NCBI GenBank assembly: GCA_903927345.1
Contig: CAIYMO010000017.1
Coordinates: 62,001 to 126,000 of the forward strand
Length of the DNA: 64,000 nucleotides
Source: an uncultured Armatimonadota bacterium
Lineage (GTDB): Bacteria > Armatimonadota > Fimbriimonadia > Fimbriimonadales > Fimbriimonadaceae
Direction: 5' to 3'
Made by a program: the position numbers and the translations under genes. The notes under the pieces are model-generated. The model saw nothing but the letters and a program-made list of their open reading frames with translations, ran no database searches and was not told the DNA's origin. Shown here piece by piece: positions 2,884 through 12,672 of the stretch (positions within the stretch are counted from its first letter, which is position 1; the number at the start of each line of letters is the position of its first letter).

Positions 2884-5835
2884 ATGATTCGAAAGCTACT
2901 TGTTTTGGTTTGCCTCTTGGCAAGTTCGTTGGCCTTCGCTGAGCTCAACTTCTCAACCTTTCTCCCCGAGAAGAAGTGGGCGCTCTGTATCGGCGCAAGC
3001 AATTACTCCAAAATTTCAAAGCTCACCTTTGCCGGAAAGGACGCCGTTCGATTTTCAGAGTTCCTCGTCAGTTACGGATTCAAAAAAGAGGATGTCCACC
3101 TCCTCTCCGACGATGCCGGGCAGGTTGCACCCACGAAGAAGAATATTGAAGCAAAACTCACCGAGATTCTAAAGTCTCCAGACCTCGAAAAAGGTGACCA
3201 GTTCATCGTCTTCTTCAGCGGTCACGGTGTCGGCCTAAAGGATGGAGACTACTGGCTTCCATCGGATACGAATCCCGCAGATTACGCTTCGACGGCGATC
3301 TCCATCAAATCAGTAATCAAACGACTCGCCGATGCGGGTCTGAAAAGCGTGACGATCCTCTCGGACGCATGTCGGGCAGGTGAGAAGAACCCATTCGGCA
3401 ATGAGCTCATCGCGCTAGGGAAGAAGACAAATATTGCCGTCCTCCTCGGCTGCGAGCCGGGTGCCAAATCCTACGAGCTCCGTAACCGCCAGCAAGGCGC
3501 CTTTACCTACTACTTAACTCGTTCCCTCCAGAACCAAGCGCTTGCAGACCCGGTGACCGGCGCCGTTTGGGTCTCCAAGATCGGAGAGCGACTGAAAGAA
3601 GTTGTGTCGGCCGCGACCGCTGGCGAATATGGATCGAACAAGCAGGTTCCCGCAGTGTATGCCGACGCAGCGCAGGACGTCGCCTTTGGACTCATAGCTA
3701 CCGCCGACCCAGACAAACAGCTGACAGGGGTCTCTGGAGCTCAGCTTAGTCGGGATCAGCGAATAGCGCTTCTCACAAAGTTAGGGCGGGAACTGGTCGA
3801 AAAAGGCGACTACTCCCGGGCGATTGATTGCTATAAGGCAATCGAAGCCCTTGGCGATATCTCCGACTCCGCCCTTTTCCAATACTGTGTCGCTCTCAAC
3901 AAACTCGGACGCTCCTATGAGATCGCCCGGGTCGGTCAGCGATTCATCTTGGATCGACCGCTCACCAACCGTCGGGCGGCCCTCATGACGTTGATGCCGC
4001 CAAAGCTTGTGACGACGGAAATGGCTTCAAATGCGATCAATCACTTGGTCGGGAAGTTTGAAAATGACTTCAGTGAAGTGATGATTCTCGTCCCGCTGAT
4101 GCAGCGCTGGGACCTACCGAAGTCGGCGATCCAGAACCACATACAAGCGAAGCTCGAGGGTTCTAAGTGGAACCAGGAACAACGAGCCTTTGCACAAGCC
4201 ACAATTCTCAGGCTCCAGGGCAAAGGCAGCGAGGCGTTTGACATTCACCTTAAGTGTATAGGTGCTAGCATCGACCAGTCCGACCTCGTCGATGCAATGG
4301 TTCGCGACCTCCTCGCAGAACCAAACGTCGAACGGCTCACCACTTGGCTCGCACTTGCGCTCAAGACCGAGGGGCTCTCTCATCTGTCCAGTTACTCGAT
4401 GATCGAGTTTGGACACCTGCAAGATCGGGCAAACCTAAAGCTTTACGTTGATGCGGCAATTCGAAATAAAATCCCGCTCCTCACCTTGCTCAAGCTCACT
4501 CCGAGGCTGATTGATGCGAAAGCGATCAATCCCGAACAACTTGGCCAGTACCTCCAAGATCAGCCCCTCAGCTTCGAAGCAAACTTGTTTAAGTGGATCT
4601 CCGGCAACCTGGCGAAGCGAGAATTCGGCGGAGAGATACCAGAGTCGGTGTTTAAATATGCCCCCAGCCGAACCGAAGCGATCGCGATCAGTTTTGAAAC
4701 CTGGATCGAACTCGCTTCGATCGACCAGTGGAACCAAGATCGCGAAACCGAAGCGACCAAACTTAAACGCGAGATACTCTTCCAGTATCGGCCGTATCTG
4801 CCCGAGATTCTCGCAGATCCTAGTCTGCTCGCGTCCTATGCTCGGGAACTGTGCAGAGTTGGTTTCGGACTCGAAGCCTGGTACTGGCTCAATATTCAGA
4901 CCAAGCTCTCTGCCCAACAGGTCGCCAGCCGAGAACTTACCGAAATCCGCCTCCTCTCTGCTCTCCAGTACGGCGACATGAATCTTGTTCGGCAACTCGA
5001 AGCTGCCATTTCCAAAAAGGGTGGCCTCAGCGATGAAACCGCTGTTCACCTCATGTGGAACTCCTTCTTTTCGGATCAACTGCCCGCGGCAAAAGCCGTG
5101 ATGAGTCGACTGAACCCGACGGAGCCAAAGCTCAAAACTCATCTTGCCCTAGCCCAGGCTTACGTCCTCTTCAAAGAAAAGGGAAAGAAGGAGGCCGTGG
5201 AATATGCCTTCTCACGCTCAGGCGAAAACTTCAAGCTGATCGGAAACCTCATTCCTCTGAGCGTCCTGATCACCTACATCATCGAAGGCGGCGAACCCGA
5301 TCTTGGTGTGGTTGGAAAGCTTATCGGTTTCACCCCCGAATGGGAGGACATCTCGATCCTGTTGCTCAAAAAACTTCAGCCAGAGATCGCAAAAGCGAAA
5401 GATGCTGGAATTGCCGGATTTGGCAAAGCCCTTCGTACAAAGCTAGCTGGATTCCCCGGTAGCCGATACCTCTGGGAAGTTAGCCTCGAAGACGACGCAA
5501 CGATACTCGACTACACCGGAGACTACACGTTCGCACTGGCGACTCAATACGGTGGTCAAGTAGAGATCAACAACCTTAAGTTCAAAGTCGATTCAAAGGG
5601 AGTCGTGACTGGAAAAGTCGACAAGTGGGAAATCCAAGGCACCGTTGATCAATACGGCACATTTTCGGCTCACCTGATCGTAAACGGCAAGGAAGCAACC
5701 GCTATATCAGCCAAGCTCCCCAAGTACAAATCGCTCACCAGCGACGGCGAAGGGAAGTGGACCAAGGCGATCAAGTTCCTTTTTATCGATAACTCACTTT
5801 TACTTGCTCGTTTCGATGCCACTTTTCAGCCCTAA
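2884..5835 (+). CDS. Exported caspase-fold (peptidase C14-like) protein with long helical repeat region
   Basis: The 983-residue protein begins with a signal peptide (residues 1-19, ending A-F-A). Residues 30-250 form a caspase/metacaspase domain: start strand W-A-L-C-I-G-A-S-N-Y, catalytic His114 in F-F-S-G-H-G, and catalytic Cys163 in S-D-A-C-R-A-G. Both dyad residues are intact, so activity is plausible. Residues about 290-850 are helical with TPR-like spacing (for example Y-S-R-A-I-D-C-Y-K-A-I-E-A-L-G-D), and the last about 110 residues are beta-rich. Known bacterial caspase-like proteases often couple to partner or repeat domains that sense or recruit. No partner gene with an obvious role adjoins it. 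Fold is confident; substrate and physiological role are unknown. Confidence 0.82.
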   Translation: MIRKLLVLVCLLASSLAFAELNFSTFLPEKKWALCIGASNYSKISKLTFAGKDAVRFSEFLVSYGFKKEDVHLLSDDAGQVAPTKKNIEAKLTEILKSPDLEKGDQFIVFFSGHGVGLKDGDYWLPSDTNPADYASTAISIKSVIKRLADAGLKSVTILSDACRAGEKNPFGNELIALGKKTNIAVLLGCEPGAKSYELRNRQQGAFTYYLTRSLQNQALADPVTGAVWVSKIGERLKEVVSAATAGEYGSNKQVPAVYADAAQDVAFGLIATADPDKQLTGVSGAQLSRDQRIALLTKLGRELVEKGDYSRAIDCYKAIEALGDISDSALFQYCVALNKLGRSYEIARVGQRFILDRPLTNRRAALMTLMPPKLVTTEMASNAINHLVGKFENDFSEVMILVPLMQRWDLPKSAIQNHIQAKLEGSKWNQEQRAFAQATILRLQGKGSEAFDIHLKCIGASIDQSDLVDAMVRDLLAEPNVERLTTWLALALKTEGLSHLSSYSMIEFGHLQDRANLKLYVDAAIRNKIPLLTLLKLTPRLIDAKAINPEQLGQYLQDQPLSFEANLFKWISGNLAKREFGGEIPESVFKYAPSRTEAIAISFETWIELASIDQWNQDRETEATKLKREILFQYRPYLPEILADPSLLASYARELCRVGFGLEAWYWLNIQTKLSAQQVASRELTEIRLLSALQYGDMNLVRQLEAAISKKGGLSDETAVHLMWNSFFSDQLPAAKAVMSRLNPTEPKLKTHLALAQAYVLFKEKGKKEAVEYAFSRSGENFKLIGNLIPLSVLITYIIEGGEPDLGVVGKLIGFTPEWEDISILLLKKLQPEIAKAKDAGIAGFGKALRTKLAGFPGSRYLWEVSLEDDATILDYTGDYTFALATQYGGQVEINNLKFKVDSKGVVTGKVDKWEIQGTVDQYGTFSAHLIVNGKEATAISAKLPKYKSLTSDGEGKWTKAIKFLFIDNSLLLARFDATFQP

Positions 5836-9573: not shown

Positions 9574-10167
9574 CTACTCTTTCGGTTGTCGGATTGATGT
9601 GCCGAATTCACGTTTGATAATGCCGAATTCCTTGGTGACCCAAAATCTCATTGTACGAGATCGAGGCGTCTCAAGGAAGATCCGTAGGTCCACGGTGGTC
9701 AGCACCGCGTGCACAGACTTGCCCTGATAGGGCACTTGCGCGTCCTCAGTCGTAATCTTCGCTTCGGCAGGAATTGGCTTCGCCGGAGAAATCAACGAGC
9801 CTTTCCAAGTCCAGCTATCACCGGCATGCATCGGAATCTTGATGATCCCGATCGGGGGATCATAAACCTCGTCTCCTGCCTCACGAACGAGCAAGCCGGT
9901 AGAACCGACCTCGTACTGCTCACGCTCGATCGTGACGTCCATGTCTCGGATCTCAATGACCCGTTCACTTCCCTTAGATGTCGTGCTGAGCTTGCTCGGC
10001 AATACGGTGCCATCAACGCAAAATGACGTCTCATTTCCCGGAGGGCAGACACGCCCGATATCCTGAACCGAACTCAGGTAAGTCCCGTTAGATTCGTGAA
10101 TGGAAACTTGGTCGCAACCCCAAACGCTTGCCAATAAGAAGAGGCTACTTAACCTCTTCCATGACAA
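9574..10167 (-). CDS. Predicted lipoprotein, third of a tandem set
   Basis: I chose a TTG start at 10167, giving 197 residues that begin M-S-W-K-R-L and run through a hydrophobic core to W-G-C, a rough lipobox. Earlier in-frame starts exist (ATG 10188, TTG 10200) and would overlap the upstream gene by 44-56 bp. The mature part is beta-rich and includes I-P-M-H-A-G-D-S-W-T-W-K-G-S, which resembles segments of the two upstream lipoproteins. No known family is recognised. It lies directly before rodA, so an envelope role is a guess from context. Confidence 0.6.
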   Translation of the reverse strand: MSWKRLSSLFLLASVWGCDQVSIHESNGTYLSSVQDIGRVCPPGNETSFCVDGTVLPSKLSTTSKGSERVIEIRDMDVTIEREQYEVGSTGLLVREAGDEVYDPPIGIIKIPMHAGDSWTWKGSLISPAKPIPAEAKITTEDAQVPYQGKSVHAVLTTVDLRIFLETPRSRTMRFWVTKEFGIIKREFGTSIRQPKE

Positions 10168-10840
10168 TCTTGTTGGTGTTCTTTCCATCAATCGACTCAA
10201 TCTCCGTCTTCACCGTACCGCGACCCTTAACAAGCCACAGCTTAGAGTTCAGTTTGAATGACCGACCACCCTGGGTACCGGTGGCGTTGACCGTGATCAA
10301 CAGCGCGTCATTGTAGGTAGCAACGGGAGTTGTGACGGCCTGAGTTCCCACGACCTTGTTTGTTCCGGTCATTTTCATCACGCTGTCCGCCGTCGTTTTG
10401 ATGTCCCAGGTTTTGCCTGGGGTAAGACCGGCAGGGAGTTCCCAAGTCGATTGATCCGAAGAAATCGTCGCGTTAGAAGCAGCCCGGATTCCGCCCTTTT
10501 CGACCTTGAAGCTTGCCGTATCCAAACCGACGAGTTCATCAGAGCTCTCTAGGTTGTACTCGGCAACGCCATTCTCAACCTTAACCAGCTTGAATGTCTG
10601 AGACCCAACCTTATCCGGCTGTCCACTCTGCTTAATCGCGAGCTTCATCGGCTCGGTTCGACCAAGGCCGTAGTACTCGAAAGCGTCTGTCTTAAGCTCG
10701 GCGGGAACCTCAGGAGTCTTTGCAACTTCTGTCGCAGAATTCGTATCCGATGAGGCCGCTCCGTTAGCCGCGGAAGCACCTTTGTCACCGCAACCAGCGA
10801 GAAGAACGAGCGCGATCGGCAGGAAAAAGACGGGTTTCAT
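10145..10840 (-). CDS. Predicted lipoprotein, second of a tandem set
   Basis: The 231-residue protein has a clear lipoprotein signal ending L-L-A-G-C at residues 13-17, followed by a Ser/Ala/Asn-rich linker to about residue 45 and a beta-rich domain. A segment A-G-L-T-P-G-K-T-W-D-I-K-T-T parallels G-D-S-W-T-W-K-G-S in the downstream protein and D-D-V-Y-D-Y-K-G-T in the upstream one. Its start overlaps the upstream stop by one base (TAATG), a strong sign of coupling. Function is not recognised. Confidence 0.72.
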   Translation of the reverse strand: MKPVFFLPIALVLLAGCGDKGASAANGAASSDTNSATEVAKTPEVPAELKTDAFEYYGLGRTEPMKLAIKQSGQPDKVGSQTFKLVKVENGVAEYNLESSDELVGLDTASFKVEKGGIRAASNATISSDQSTWELPAGLTPGKTWDIKTTADSVMKMTGTNKVVGTQAVTTPVATYNDALLITVNATGTQGGRSFKLNSKLWLVKGRGTVKTEIESIDGKNTNKIVMEEVK

Positions 10841-11556
10841 TACTTGATAGTGTAGCTCTTTAGCCGAAGCGTGAGCGAGCTTCGGGCGCCCTTGATCGAG
10901 ACAACTTGCTTAAACCGGGCGAGCCCGACGTTAGGGACAAACCAGCTGTTGTTTCCAACCACGCCTTCGCCCTTTGGCGACTTGAATGATCCGCTCGACT
11001 CGATGAACAGTCCGCTCATTCGACCACTGTCGGTATCAACTGGCTGAGAATCGTGAGTCGCAAACTTATAATCCATCGAGCCTGCTTCTCCAAGCGGCGT
11101 AATGCCTGTGCCCTTGTAGTCATAAACGTCATCAAATTTCAGCGGGAACTTGATGATTGTTTGCTTAGGAGAGAAGACGATCGGCGTTTTGCCCACCGAA
11201 ACTTGGTGCACGCCCGTGGAGTCAACTTCCCAAACCTGCTCGTCCTTCTCTTTGCCCTCTTCCGACATCACAAGGACGCCCCGGGTCACACCAGGGGAAG
11301 GGTTTGAAACTGACTTGACTTCGTACCCAATCTCAACGGTGCCGCTCTCTGGCTCTTTACCGTCGATCTCACGAGTGATCTCAAGAGCGTAATTCCACTT
11401 GTTACCAACTTTGAGCGGATACAGCTGTTCAGGAGTAGCTTTGCTTGCCTCCTCGACCTTTGGTTCCTTGATCGGAACGGGCTTGTATTCACCCTTTCCA
11501 CATCCAACGGCAACGAGGCCAAGAGCACCAACACTAATCTTCAAAATATCATTCAA
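10840..11556 (-). CDS. Predicted lipoprotein, first of a tandem set
   Basis: The 238-residue protein begins with a signal ending V-A-V-G-C (Cys19). The mature part starts with a Lys/Pro/Glu-rich linker, then Y-P-L-K-V-G-N-K-W-N-Y, a motif often seen at the start of outer-surface beta-sandwich domains in predicted lipoproteins, and ends in alternating strands. A GGAGA ribosome site lies about 10 bp before the ATG. It heads the lipoprotein-lipoprotein-lipoprotein-rodA run and starts 16 bp after the SecD-like gene. No known family is recognised. Confidence 0.72.
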   Translation of the reverse strand: MNDILKISVGALGLVAVGCGKGEYKPVPIKEPKVEEASKATPEQLYPLKVGNKWNYALEITREIDGKEPESGTVEIGYEVKSVSNPSPGVTRGVLVMSEEGKEKDEQVWEVDSTGVHQVSVGKTPIVFSPKQTIIKFPLKFDDVYDYKGTGITPLGEAGSMDYKFATHDSQPVDTDSGRMSGLFIESSGSFKSPKGEGVVGNNSWFVPNVGLARFKQVVSIKGARSSLTLRLKSYTIK

Positions 11557-11571
11557 GAGAATCTCCTGCAG

Positions 11572-12672
11572 TTAACGCGATTTAACTAAGTCTACAGCTT
11601 CCTGAACTAGCGTCTTGTCCGCAATCTGTTTAATCACCAGTTCTTTACTATTCAACTGTGTTCCCACTGTCGCGGCTGCGATCGGAACCTTCTTGCTAAC
11701 CACAATAATCTTCGTGTTTGGGTGCTCGCTAGAGAACTTCCAAAGCCGAGCAGCTCCTTCATCGGTCAGGTGGATACTCAAGTCGTAAGAGCTCTCTTTT
11801 CCGGAGTTAACCTCGGTGACTTCAGCACCTTCGATCATCTTCCGGTTGGTAATCACCTGGGCATGCTTGAGAATATTGATGGCCTTCCGGTAGCCCTCTC
11901 CCTTTGCACCCGAAGCAAGGAGCGACTTGATCAGGTCAGCAGGATTCTCCGCCGATTTACCCTCATTCTTGGCAACGTACTCGGCATAGAATCGATCCAG
12001 CGCATCCGCGTCCAAGAACTTAGACTCAAGCTCCTTATAGAGCGAACTCATCGCCTTTGACTTCAACGGAACCGTGTTGAATCCCTGAACCGGCTTACCC
12101 GAGGCGTTCGAGATATCGAATGTGATCGGCACCTTCAAACGAATGCCATGATAGAAGGCCGTCCGGTTGAGCTTCGCCGGGAGTTTCCCGTCAAGCGAAA
12201 CGTTTAGGTCGCTCTCAAGCTTGGCCTTAAGAACTGGGTCACCAGCCAGAGCCTTTTCTGCATCTGCAGTGCTCCAGATGGGAGCTTCTTCGCTGGGCTC
12301 TTCCGTGTTCTCCTTCTTAGCCAACTTGTACAACAAGCCGGTGGTCCCCTCAGCGTCCCCATCAAGGATCGCAAGAAGCTCCTTCATTGGGACTCGAGCT
12401 TTAATCGAGCCAGAATCCGCACCACCACCGCCGCCTGATCCGGAAGATTTAAAGTCATCGGAAGCCTCAACAATCTGCACCATTCGGTTGACGGACAGGA
12501 TCTTCACCTTTGCCTCTTCGCTAATCGCGACGAGGCAGAAGTCTTCCGACAAAATCGGATCAAGTTTCACTCCGCTCAGTCTAAACTGGGTGTAAAGCTT
12601 GCTTCCGCCAAAGCCCACGGCAAGTAAGGTCGCAAAGCCGATTGCGATTTTCGTCGATGGGCGAACTTTCAT
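11572..12672 (-). CDS. Membrane-anchored protein with SecD P1-head-like C-terminal region
   Basis: The 366-residue protein has one N-terminal membrane segment (about residues 8-25) and a large external part with a Gly-rich linker near residue 80. Residues about 295-366 contain Y-D-L-S-I-H-L-T-D-E-G-A, then I-I-V-V-S-K-K-V-P-I-A-A-A-T-V and V-I-K-Q-I-A-D-K. That order (strand, helix, strand ending in a substrate-release-type loop, strand) recalls the periplasmic head of SecD, where the strand reads as a display loop. The other SecD/F membrane helices are absent. The similarity is by eye and could be coincidental. A perfect short palindrome (GTTAG-GT-CTAAC, 12676-12687) sits 3 bp before its ATG. 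Confidence 0.6.
   Translation of the reverse strand: MKVRPSTKIAIGFATLLAVGFGGSKLYTQFRLSGVKLDPILSEDFCLVAISEEAKVKILSVNRMVQIVEASDDFKSSGSGGGGGADSGSIKARVPMKELLAILDGDAEGTTGLLYKLAKKENTEEPSEEAPIWSTADAEKALAGDPVLKAKLESDLNVSLDGKLPAKLNRTAFYHGIRLKVPITFDISNASGKPVQGFNTVPLKSKAMSSLYKELESKFLDADALDRFYAEYVAKNEGKSAENPADLIKSLLASGAKGEGYRKAINILKHAQVITNRKMIEGAEVTEVNSGKESSYDLSIHLTDEGAARLWKFSSEHPNTKIIVVSKKVPIAAATVGTQLNSKELVIKQIADKTLVQEAVDLVKSR

Follow-up and report, generated by a model that had tools for sequence, protein, structure and literature searches.

To our knowledge, most bacterial caspase-like proteases have neither a known partner nor a known target. We studied one of them, encoded at positions 2884-5835 of a 64,000-nucleotide stretch of DNA from an uncultured Armatimonadota bacterium (contig CAIYMO010000017.1, positions 62,001 to 126,000; this whole stretch is called the window). 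The predicted product is an exported protease with a caspase fold, a long arm of helices resembling tetratricopeptide repeats (TPRs), and a C-terminal beta domain.

The domains of such proteins were recorded in a 2012 survey of 671 prokaryotic caspase homologues, where TPR_1 was present in 7.0% and TPR_2 in 5.8%, and 46 homologues had a single N-terminal helix, possibly a signal peptide (PMC3501461). Thus TPR-bearing and possibly exported homologues are on record, and neither half of the architecture is new. An earlier note on this gene had held that exported members with long repeats are rarely described, which is half right: members that are possibly exported or that bear TPRs were already in the survey (PMC3501461). 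The other relevant system is Escherichia coli BepA (YfgC), an M48 metallopeptidase with a described plug motif; it works in quality control, under autoregulation, and is not a digestive enzyme (PMC7950410).

Our results showed that the window-type caspase gene is inherited together with a gene for an exported, BepA-like M48 metallopeptidase. The pairing of the genes is well supported; the order of action, the substrates and the role of the two proteins are inferred.

Co-inheritance of the caspase and M48 genes

The collection comprised 291 genomes of the phylum, 85 of which belong to the bacterial family of the window (f1); the genome of the window itself is G000. Matches to the caspase family profile at 1e-30 were present in 35 of the 291 genomes: 29 in f1, one (G050) in family f5, and five elsewhere, which align over the caspase domain only. 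Clustering of up to five genes on each side of 43 caspase loci gave one large cluster, found at 19 loci, followed by a cluster at 5. Some of the 19 loci represent one genome taken from two collections, and the clustering missed the M48 gene of G031. The large cluster consists of exported M48 metallopeptidases with TPRs, so that the search for partner genes in relatives, proposed in the earlier note, did find one. As to a third component, no cluster other than M48 occurred in more than 5 of the 43 loci within the same five genes on each side.

Both genes were present in 28 of the 85 f1 genomes, the caspase alone in one, the M48 gene alone in none, and neither in 56 (Fisher p 1.3e-21). The family member of one of these genomes, G020, is an arm-only open reading frame (ORF) that lacks the caspase domain (L133 2340-4607, G020:C1); when this genome was counted as caspase-negative, the table became 27/1/1/56 (p 7e-20). 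A looser threshold of 1e-6 added M48 matches in only two f1 genomes, at 31 and 28 bits. The family-profile scan scored two candidates per genome, and C14 proteins were therefore counted separately. Some C14 protein was encoded in 68 of the 85 genomes; 39 of these had no window-family member, and none of the 39 had the M48 partner. Outside f1, weak matches to the partner (97-117 bits) occurred in four genomes and matches to the caspase domain in five, with no overlap between them.

The distribution was also analyzed on an RpoB tree that comprised 72 f1 genomes, namely the 70 of high quality together with G126 and G158; the other 13 of the 85 were G127 and 12 genomes with neither gene. RpoB covers less than half of the alignment columns in G009, G011 and G144, and G129 has a long branch. 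The states of the two genes were identical in all 72 genomes, G020 being scored positive by its arm and then recoded in a repeat. The tree requires at least 14 changes of the pair, nine of them forced by well-supported branches. Independent contrasts agreed in 9 of 9 cases (p 0.0039), and with G020 recoded in a mean of 8.6 of 9, none being opposite. An unrelated locus with two caspases (the WD40-caspase pair, compared below) served as a control on the same tree and did not show this pattern.

The two protein trees agree beyond the species signal. Their distances correlate at 0.71, with a partial r of 0.64 given RpoB, a value reached in 0 of 2000 permutations (18 genomes for which both sequences were available). 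Three of these genomes have a second paralogue: G031 and G005 were represented by the copy near the M48 gene and G000 by the window copy, and exchanging all three for the alternative copy gave a partial r of 0.61. Both protein trees also group G031 with G130, contrary to RpoB, which suggests that the pair was transferred as a unit.

In 13 of the 28 genomes at most 1 kb separates the two genes (with one intervening ORF in G005). In the other 15 the genes are apart, with separations that include 2 Mb in G130 and 281 kb in G018; part of the 15 are cases of different contigs in fragmented assemblies, where the genes may still be linked. Eight of the 13 linked pairs are convergent and five are co-directional with the M48 gene upstream, and in four of these five (G034, G144, G128, and G172) the hit-to-hit gap on the same strand is 6-28 bases. 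The pair is adjacent as well in two further family members, L070, a Planctomycetota metagenome-assembled genome, and L066, from an uncultured bacterium.

With the two genes apart in 15 of the 28, present linkage alone does not explain their co-inheritance. It could still be a by-product of past linkage, former neighbours having moved as a block with no functional tie, as the union of G031 and G130 in both protein trees and the frequent adjacency would allow. This explanation is very improbable in our view, given the distances in G130 and G018 and the fact that among the 85 genomes no M48 gene occurs without a family member (the member of G020 being one minus its caspase domain), with one incomplete genome that has the caspase only.

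Another explanation is that both proteins serve digestion or scavenging in a lifestyle that is gained and lost, and take part in the same process without contact. Co-inheritance indicates a shared process rather than contact, both proteins look exported, and separate location in 15 genomes fits this explanation too. We consider it unlikely: 13 genomes have the genes at most 1 kb apart, down to the short gaps mentioned above, the distances of the protein trees correlate beyond RpoB, and the best-known relative of the partner, BepA, is an autoregulated quality-control enzyme (PMC7950410).

The caspase-fold protein of the window

The features of the gene, all on the plus strand, are as follows.

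2884-5835 (stop included), +: whole gene, exported caspase-fold protease of 983 aa by prediction (ORF list; Pfam C14 match, 1.2e-21; a full-length relative in G015, L046, is 75% identical)
2884-2943, +: signal-peptide-like N-terminus, residues 1-20 (sequence and hydropathy rule)
2956-3702, +: caspase domain, residues 25-273 (model alignment to metacaspase-4 and MALT1; C14 match over 30-261)
3040-3042, +: Asp53, putative S1-pocket position (aligns with a metacaspase Asp; 31 of the 34 rows have Asp and 3 have Glu)
3223-3225, +: catalytic His114 in FSGHG (His in 34/34 rows)
3364-3366, +: Asp161, putative S1-pocket position (aligns with a metacaspase Asp two residues before the catalytic Cys; Asp in 34/34 rows)
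3370-3372, +: catalytic Cys163 in DACRAG (Cys in 34/34 rows)
3709-5487, +: TPR-like alpha-helical arm, residues 276-868 (model helices, TPR matches in relatives, Foldseek; poorly conserved)
5488-5832, +: C-terminal beta domain, residues 869-983 (model strands at 879-981; near-invariant glycines)

The Pfam Peptidase_C14 match over residues 30-261 reached 77.9 bits against a cut-off of 21.4 and is therefore not due to chance. The protein begins with MIRKLLVLVCLLASSLAFAE, which has the shape of a signal peptide, and a hydrophobic stretch of this kind was present in 31 of 31 family rows tested with a crude hydropathy rule. The AlphaFold model, built on 23 sequences, had a mean pLDDT (predicted local distance difference test) of 80.9. 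Residues 25-273 of the model aligned in VIA-align to metacaspase-4 (Z 23.8, root-mean-square deviation [rmsd] 2.4 over 216 residues), MALT1 (Z 23.1) and caspase-6 (Z 21.3), and MALT1 was also the top Foldseek match (1.5e-7). The exported caspase-like protease of the earlier note is thus borne out at the level of prediction, both catalytic residues are where it had placed them, and the structure prediction that it had suggested gave a caspase-like fold and not the unrelated one that it had named as grounds for rejection. Its CHAT-like label found no support, as there was no CHAT family among the four Pfam families listed for the protein at E up to 1.

The earlier note had also read about 560 residues after the protease as TPR-like helices, and the model agreed, with helices spanning residues 276-854. 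By sequence the TPR signal of the protein itself is weak (TPR_2, E 0.12, under the Pfam cut-off). Two relatives pass the cut-off for ANAPC3 (1e-6 and 2e-7), and the model of the window protein matches TPR superhelices in Foldseek. Conservation by blocks is poor in the arm (0.21-0.42) and higher in the caspase domain (0.48-0.75). The G015 relative is 90% identical to the window protein over the caspase domain and 68% over the arm, with nonsynonymous divergence (dN) of 0.08 and 0.25, respectively; synonymous sites are saturated, and for this reason no ratio of dN to synonymous divergence is given for the whole gene or for either part. Beyond the arm lies the beta domain (approximately 879-981), in which Gly879, Gly906 and Gly925 are nearly invariant. 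This domain, like the M48 partner elsewhere in the genome, had been overlooked by the earlier note.

The catalytic dyad and S1 positions were read from 34 selected aligned relatives, a subset of all matches. The dyad is kept in every row, and Asp53 and Asp161 line up in the sequence alignment with Asp residues of plant metacaspases. In Trypanosoma brucei metacaspase 2, two pocket Asp residues accommodate basic residues (PMC6426788). Because both S1 positions are acidic and aligned with the metacaspase pocket Asp residues, the window protein is predicted to have a C14B-like acidic S1 pocket and should cut after Arg or Lys, a prediction drawn from the alignment and not from pocket geometry.

Animal-type caspases (C14A) have Asp specificity and a basic S1 pocket. 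In the alignment, both examined S1 positions are acidic in all 34 relatives, unlike the C14A pocket. Membership of C14 is indicated by the Pfam score above cut-off, the His-Cys dyad and the caspase-type alpha/beta fold of the model. The C14 match covers profile positions 1-227 of 233, and the model aligns as far as residue 423 of metacaspase-4 and residues 291-292 of caspase-6; this reach suggests p10-like elements, a p10 domain being what distinguishes type I metacaspases (p20 plus p10) from orthocaspases (p20 without p10).

The strongly matching relatives with names are mainly from Armatimonadota, several being labelled Fimbriimonas or Fimbriimonadaceae, so that a Fimbriimonas-like bacterium is the most likely source of the window. 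Twenty-three homologues scored above 140 bits, and 21 of these are 983-1103 aa long; the outliers are L034 (778 aa, without the C-terminal part) and L025 (1280 aa, with an over-extended start). G000 encodes five C14 proteins, of which one besides the window gene, G000:C33, belongs to the same family. In the family tree the window gene and its G015 relative form a long branch adjoining G000:C33 and G002:C1. G050 carries four family caspase genes. Eight long C14 ORFs in eight genomes (seven without the window family, plus G157, which has it) match the family over the caspase domain alone.

The M48 partner and the surrounding genes

The partner in the genome of the window (G000:C14:6948-8813, minus strand) is on a different contig from the caspase gene. 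Its Peptidase_M48 match scored 44.4 bits against a cut-off of 20.3, and its Pfam TPR matches were under the cut-off. Export-like starts were found in all 24 M48 partners with a simple hydropathy rule, and the same 24 sequences all have the HEXXH motif, the third zinc-ligand Glu, and the plug His and Arg. The plug Pro (HPx4R) is kept in 8 of 24 and replaced by Ala or Thr in the other 16. The model of the L051 partner shows an M48 domain, helical repeats at 209-453, and two alpha/beta units at 472-613. By profile, E. coli BepA was the nearest solved protease (1.4e-6), outscored over the repeats by designed and other TPR proteins. By fold of the model BepA was the nearest as well, at 1e-6 in Foldseek and at Z 14.6 over residues 44-456 (M48 and TPR) in VIA-align, where TPR proteins came close behind.

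In G000 (L228 6193-6876, C14) and G018 (L233 8376-9059), the gene immediately after the M48 gene encodes a LuxR-type regulator with a PAS domain, and a similar one holds this place in G001 (L232 6077-6940); Pfam was run on the G000 and G001 copies. It is a possible regulator of the pair, the cases being too few for a claim.

The near neighbours of the window gene are housekeeping-like: dapB, two Gfo/Idh/MocA oxidoreductases and an FtsW/RodA homologue. The locus is syntenic in G015, and no conserved partner stands beside the window gene, where only these housekeeping-type neighbours, kept in G015, were found.

These neighbours bear on the role of the system. The earlier note had pointed to stress, death or defence, and the pair could indeed form an envelope defence or cell-death effector, in which the M48 enzyme would sense damage by phage or predators and unlock the caspase, envelope proteins would be destroyed, and the cell would be killed or lysed. 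Bacterial caspase-like proteases are often linked to stress or death (PMC3501461), the distribution is patchy with at least nine well-supported joint changes, four genomes (G000, G002, G005, and G031) have two family caspases to one M48 gene, and the PADLOC generic caspase model matched at 8.8e-16. That model comes without a cut-off and does not point to a particular system, and the EACC1-associated caspase model of NCBIfam (NF047832) gave 46.7 bits, far under its cut-off of 140. The near neighbourhood is housekeeping-like and syntenic, although no search was aimed at mobile-element genes, and a scan of viral contigs returned two weak matches (26% and 23% identity), both within the caspase domain. 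We regard a death or defence role as doubtful; it was not adopted as the leading explanation, the near neighbourhood and the family models giving no pointer to it. A phage origin was rejected on the same viral scan.

Some further genes of the window were observed. At its start (134-2079) the window cuts into a gene for a prolyl-oligopeptidase-type hydrolase, which shares a few bases with a CBM9-type carbohydrate-binding gene; a relative of the hydrolase ORF (L045 9154-11379) adjoins the M48 gene in G034 and G144. Positions 9574-12672 hold four successive minus-strand ORFs, three of which have lipoprotein-like starts by eye, with no Pfam match at 1e-5. Similar ORFs are found in G015 (L029), arranged in the same order.

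A proposed envelope pathway and its relation to known systems

We propose that the exported caspase-fold protease is functionally paired with the exported BepA-like M48 enzyme in an accessory two-protease system of the cell envelope, and we think this probably correct. Both proteins are predicted from their N-termini to be exported, and their site of action would be the periplasm or the outer membrane. The caspase-fold protease would cut after Arg or Lys. Its TPR arm may select partners or substrates, a task for which the arm is favoured because it changes faster than the protease domain. The M48 enzyme would be the shared, upstream or hub component, which we favour because the four genomes named above have two family caspases and one M48 gene. 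Like BepA, it may recognise faulty outer-membrane clients and then activate the caspase-like protease or hand the clients over to it. The whole would form an accessory pathway for envelope stress or quality control.

Several observations weigh against this proposal. The only f1 genome with the caspase alone is G127, which is 74% complete. In G020 the arm-only ORF is accompanied by two M48 genes (L234 5427-7292 and 10662-12458) 15-20 kb away, so that the copy ratio is reversed; either caspase proteolysis is not needed in this genome or the gene is in decay. Both the caspase-family and the M48 genes of G023 are divergent, and in G050, which is left out of the copy counts, M48 sequence is found at the ends of two contigs (C28 and C107). 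The M48 copies of G019 (G019:C45:127787-129541) and G161 (G161:C8:249784-251691) each contain one in-frame stop, through either assembly error or decay. The two genes are not adjacent in the genome of the window. The overall rmsd between the M48 model and BepA is large, 19 Å with the two domains aligned as one, and E. coli BepA functions without any caspase. Finally, the patchy presence of the pair is unusual for core outer-membrane quality control, and a role in defence or antagonism therefore stays a rival.

A more specific form of the proposed system, a cascade, is put forward tentatively: the M48 enzyme might sense outer-membrane damage and directly activate one or more exported caspase-like proteases, whose arms would choose the targets. 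If true, a metalloprotease would be the initiator of a caspase pathway that runs outside the cytoplasm, and an M48 enzyme that switches on a caspase fold in the envelope would represent both a new wiring of a proteolytic switch and a new environment for the fold. Comparative genomics here supplies a partner with a known BepA-like mode of action, together with predictions of the compartment and of the cleavage preference, and thereby a role that is directly testable.

Within f1, the system can be compared with a second recurrent caspase locus (L241, G036:C1:571000-582000), in which a C14 protein of approximately 325 aa is encoded within 5 kb of a C14-domain protein of approximately 1340 aa. It is present in at least 19 f1 genomes, and the window-type pair occurs in 0 of the 19 listed. 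Mutual exclusion of the two loci was considered and rejected: Fisher p was 1.8e-4 without phylogeny, but the median p of a sign test on the RpoB tree was 0.125. Both loci encode C14 proteins in the same bacterial family, and the WD40-caspase pair differs in its N-terminal WD40-type propellers (one copy scanned), in the second caspase adjoining it and in having no M48 partner.

The window protein shares with metacaspases and the MALT1 paracaspase (6w8r and 3uo8) the caspase fold over residues 25-273, the His-Cys dyad and the acidic S1 positions, with 21-23% identity over the aligned part. It differs from them in its predicted export, in having almost nothing between the signal peptide and the protease, and in its TPR-like arm of approximately 590 residues followed by a beta domain. 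Bacterial orthocaspases and type I metacaspases (MaOC1 and kin) are likewise single-chain C14 proteins with an intact dyad; the window family, in contrast, is tied to an exported M48 protease.

That protease has in common with E. coli BepA the M48 domain with HEXXH, the third-ligand Glu and the plug His and Arg, the TPRs that follow, and the export-like start. It adds two C-terminal alpha/beta units (472-613 in the L051 model), has the plug Pro mostly replaced, and within the 85 f1 genomes never occurs without the caspase family or, in the case of G020, its arm. A description of a caspase/M48 pairing was not found in the open-access literature that we searched. The types of component are already known, and what is new is the pairing of an M48 metallopeptidase with a caspase.

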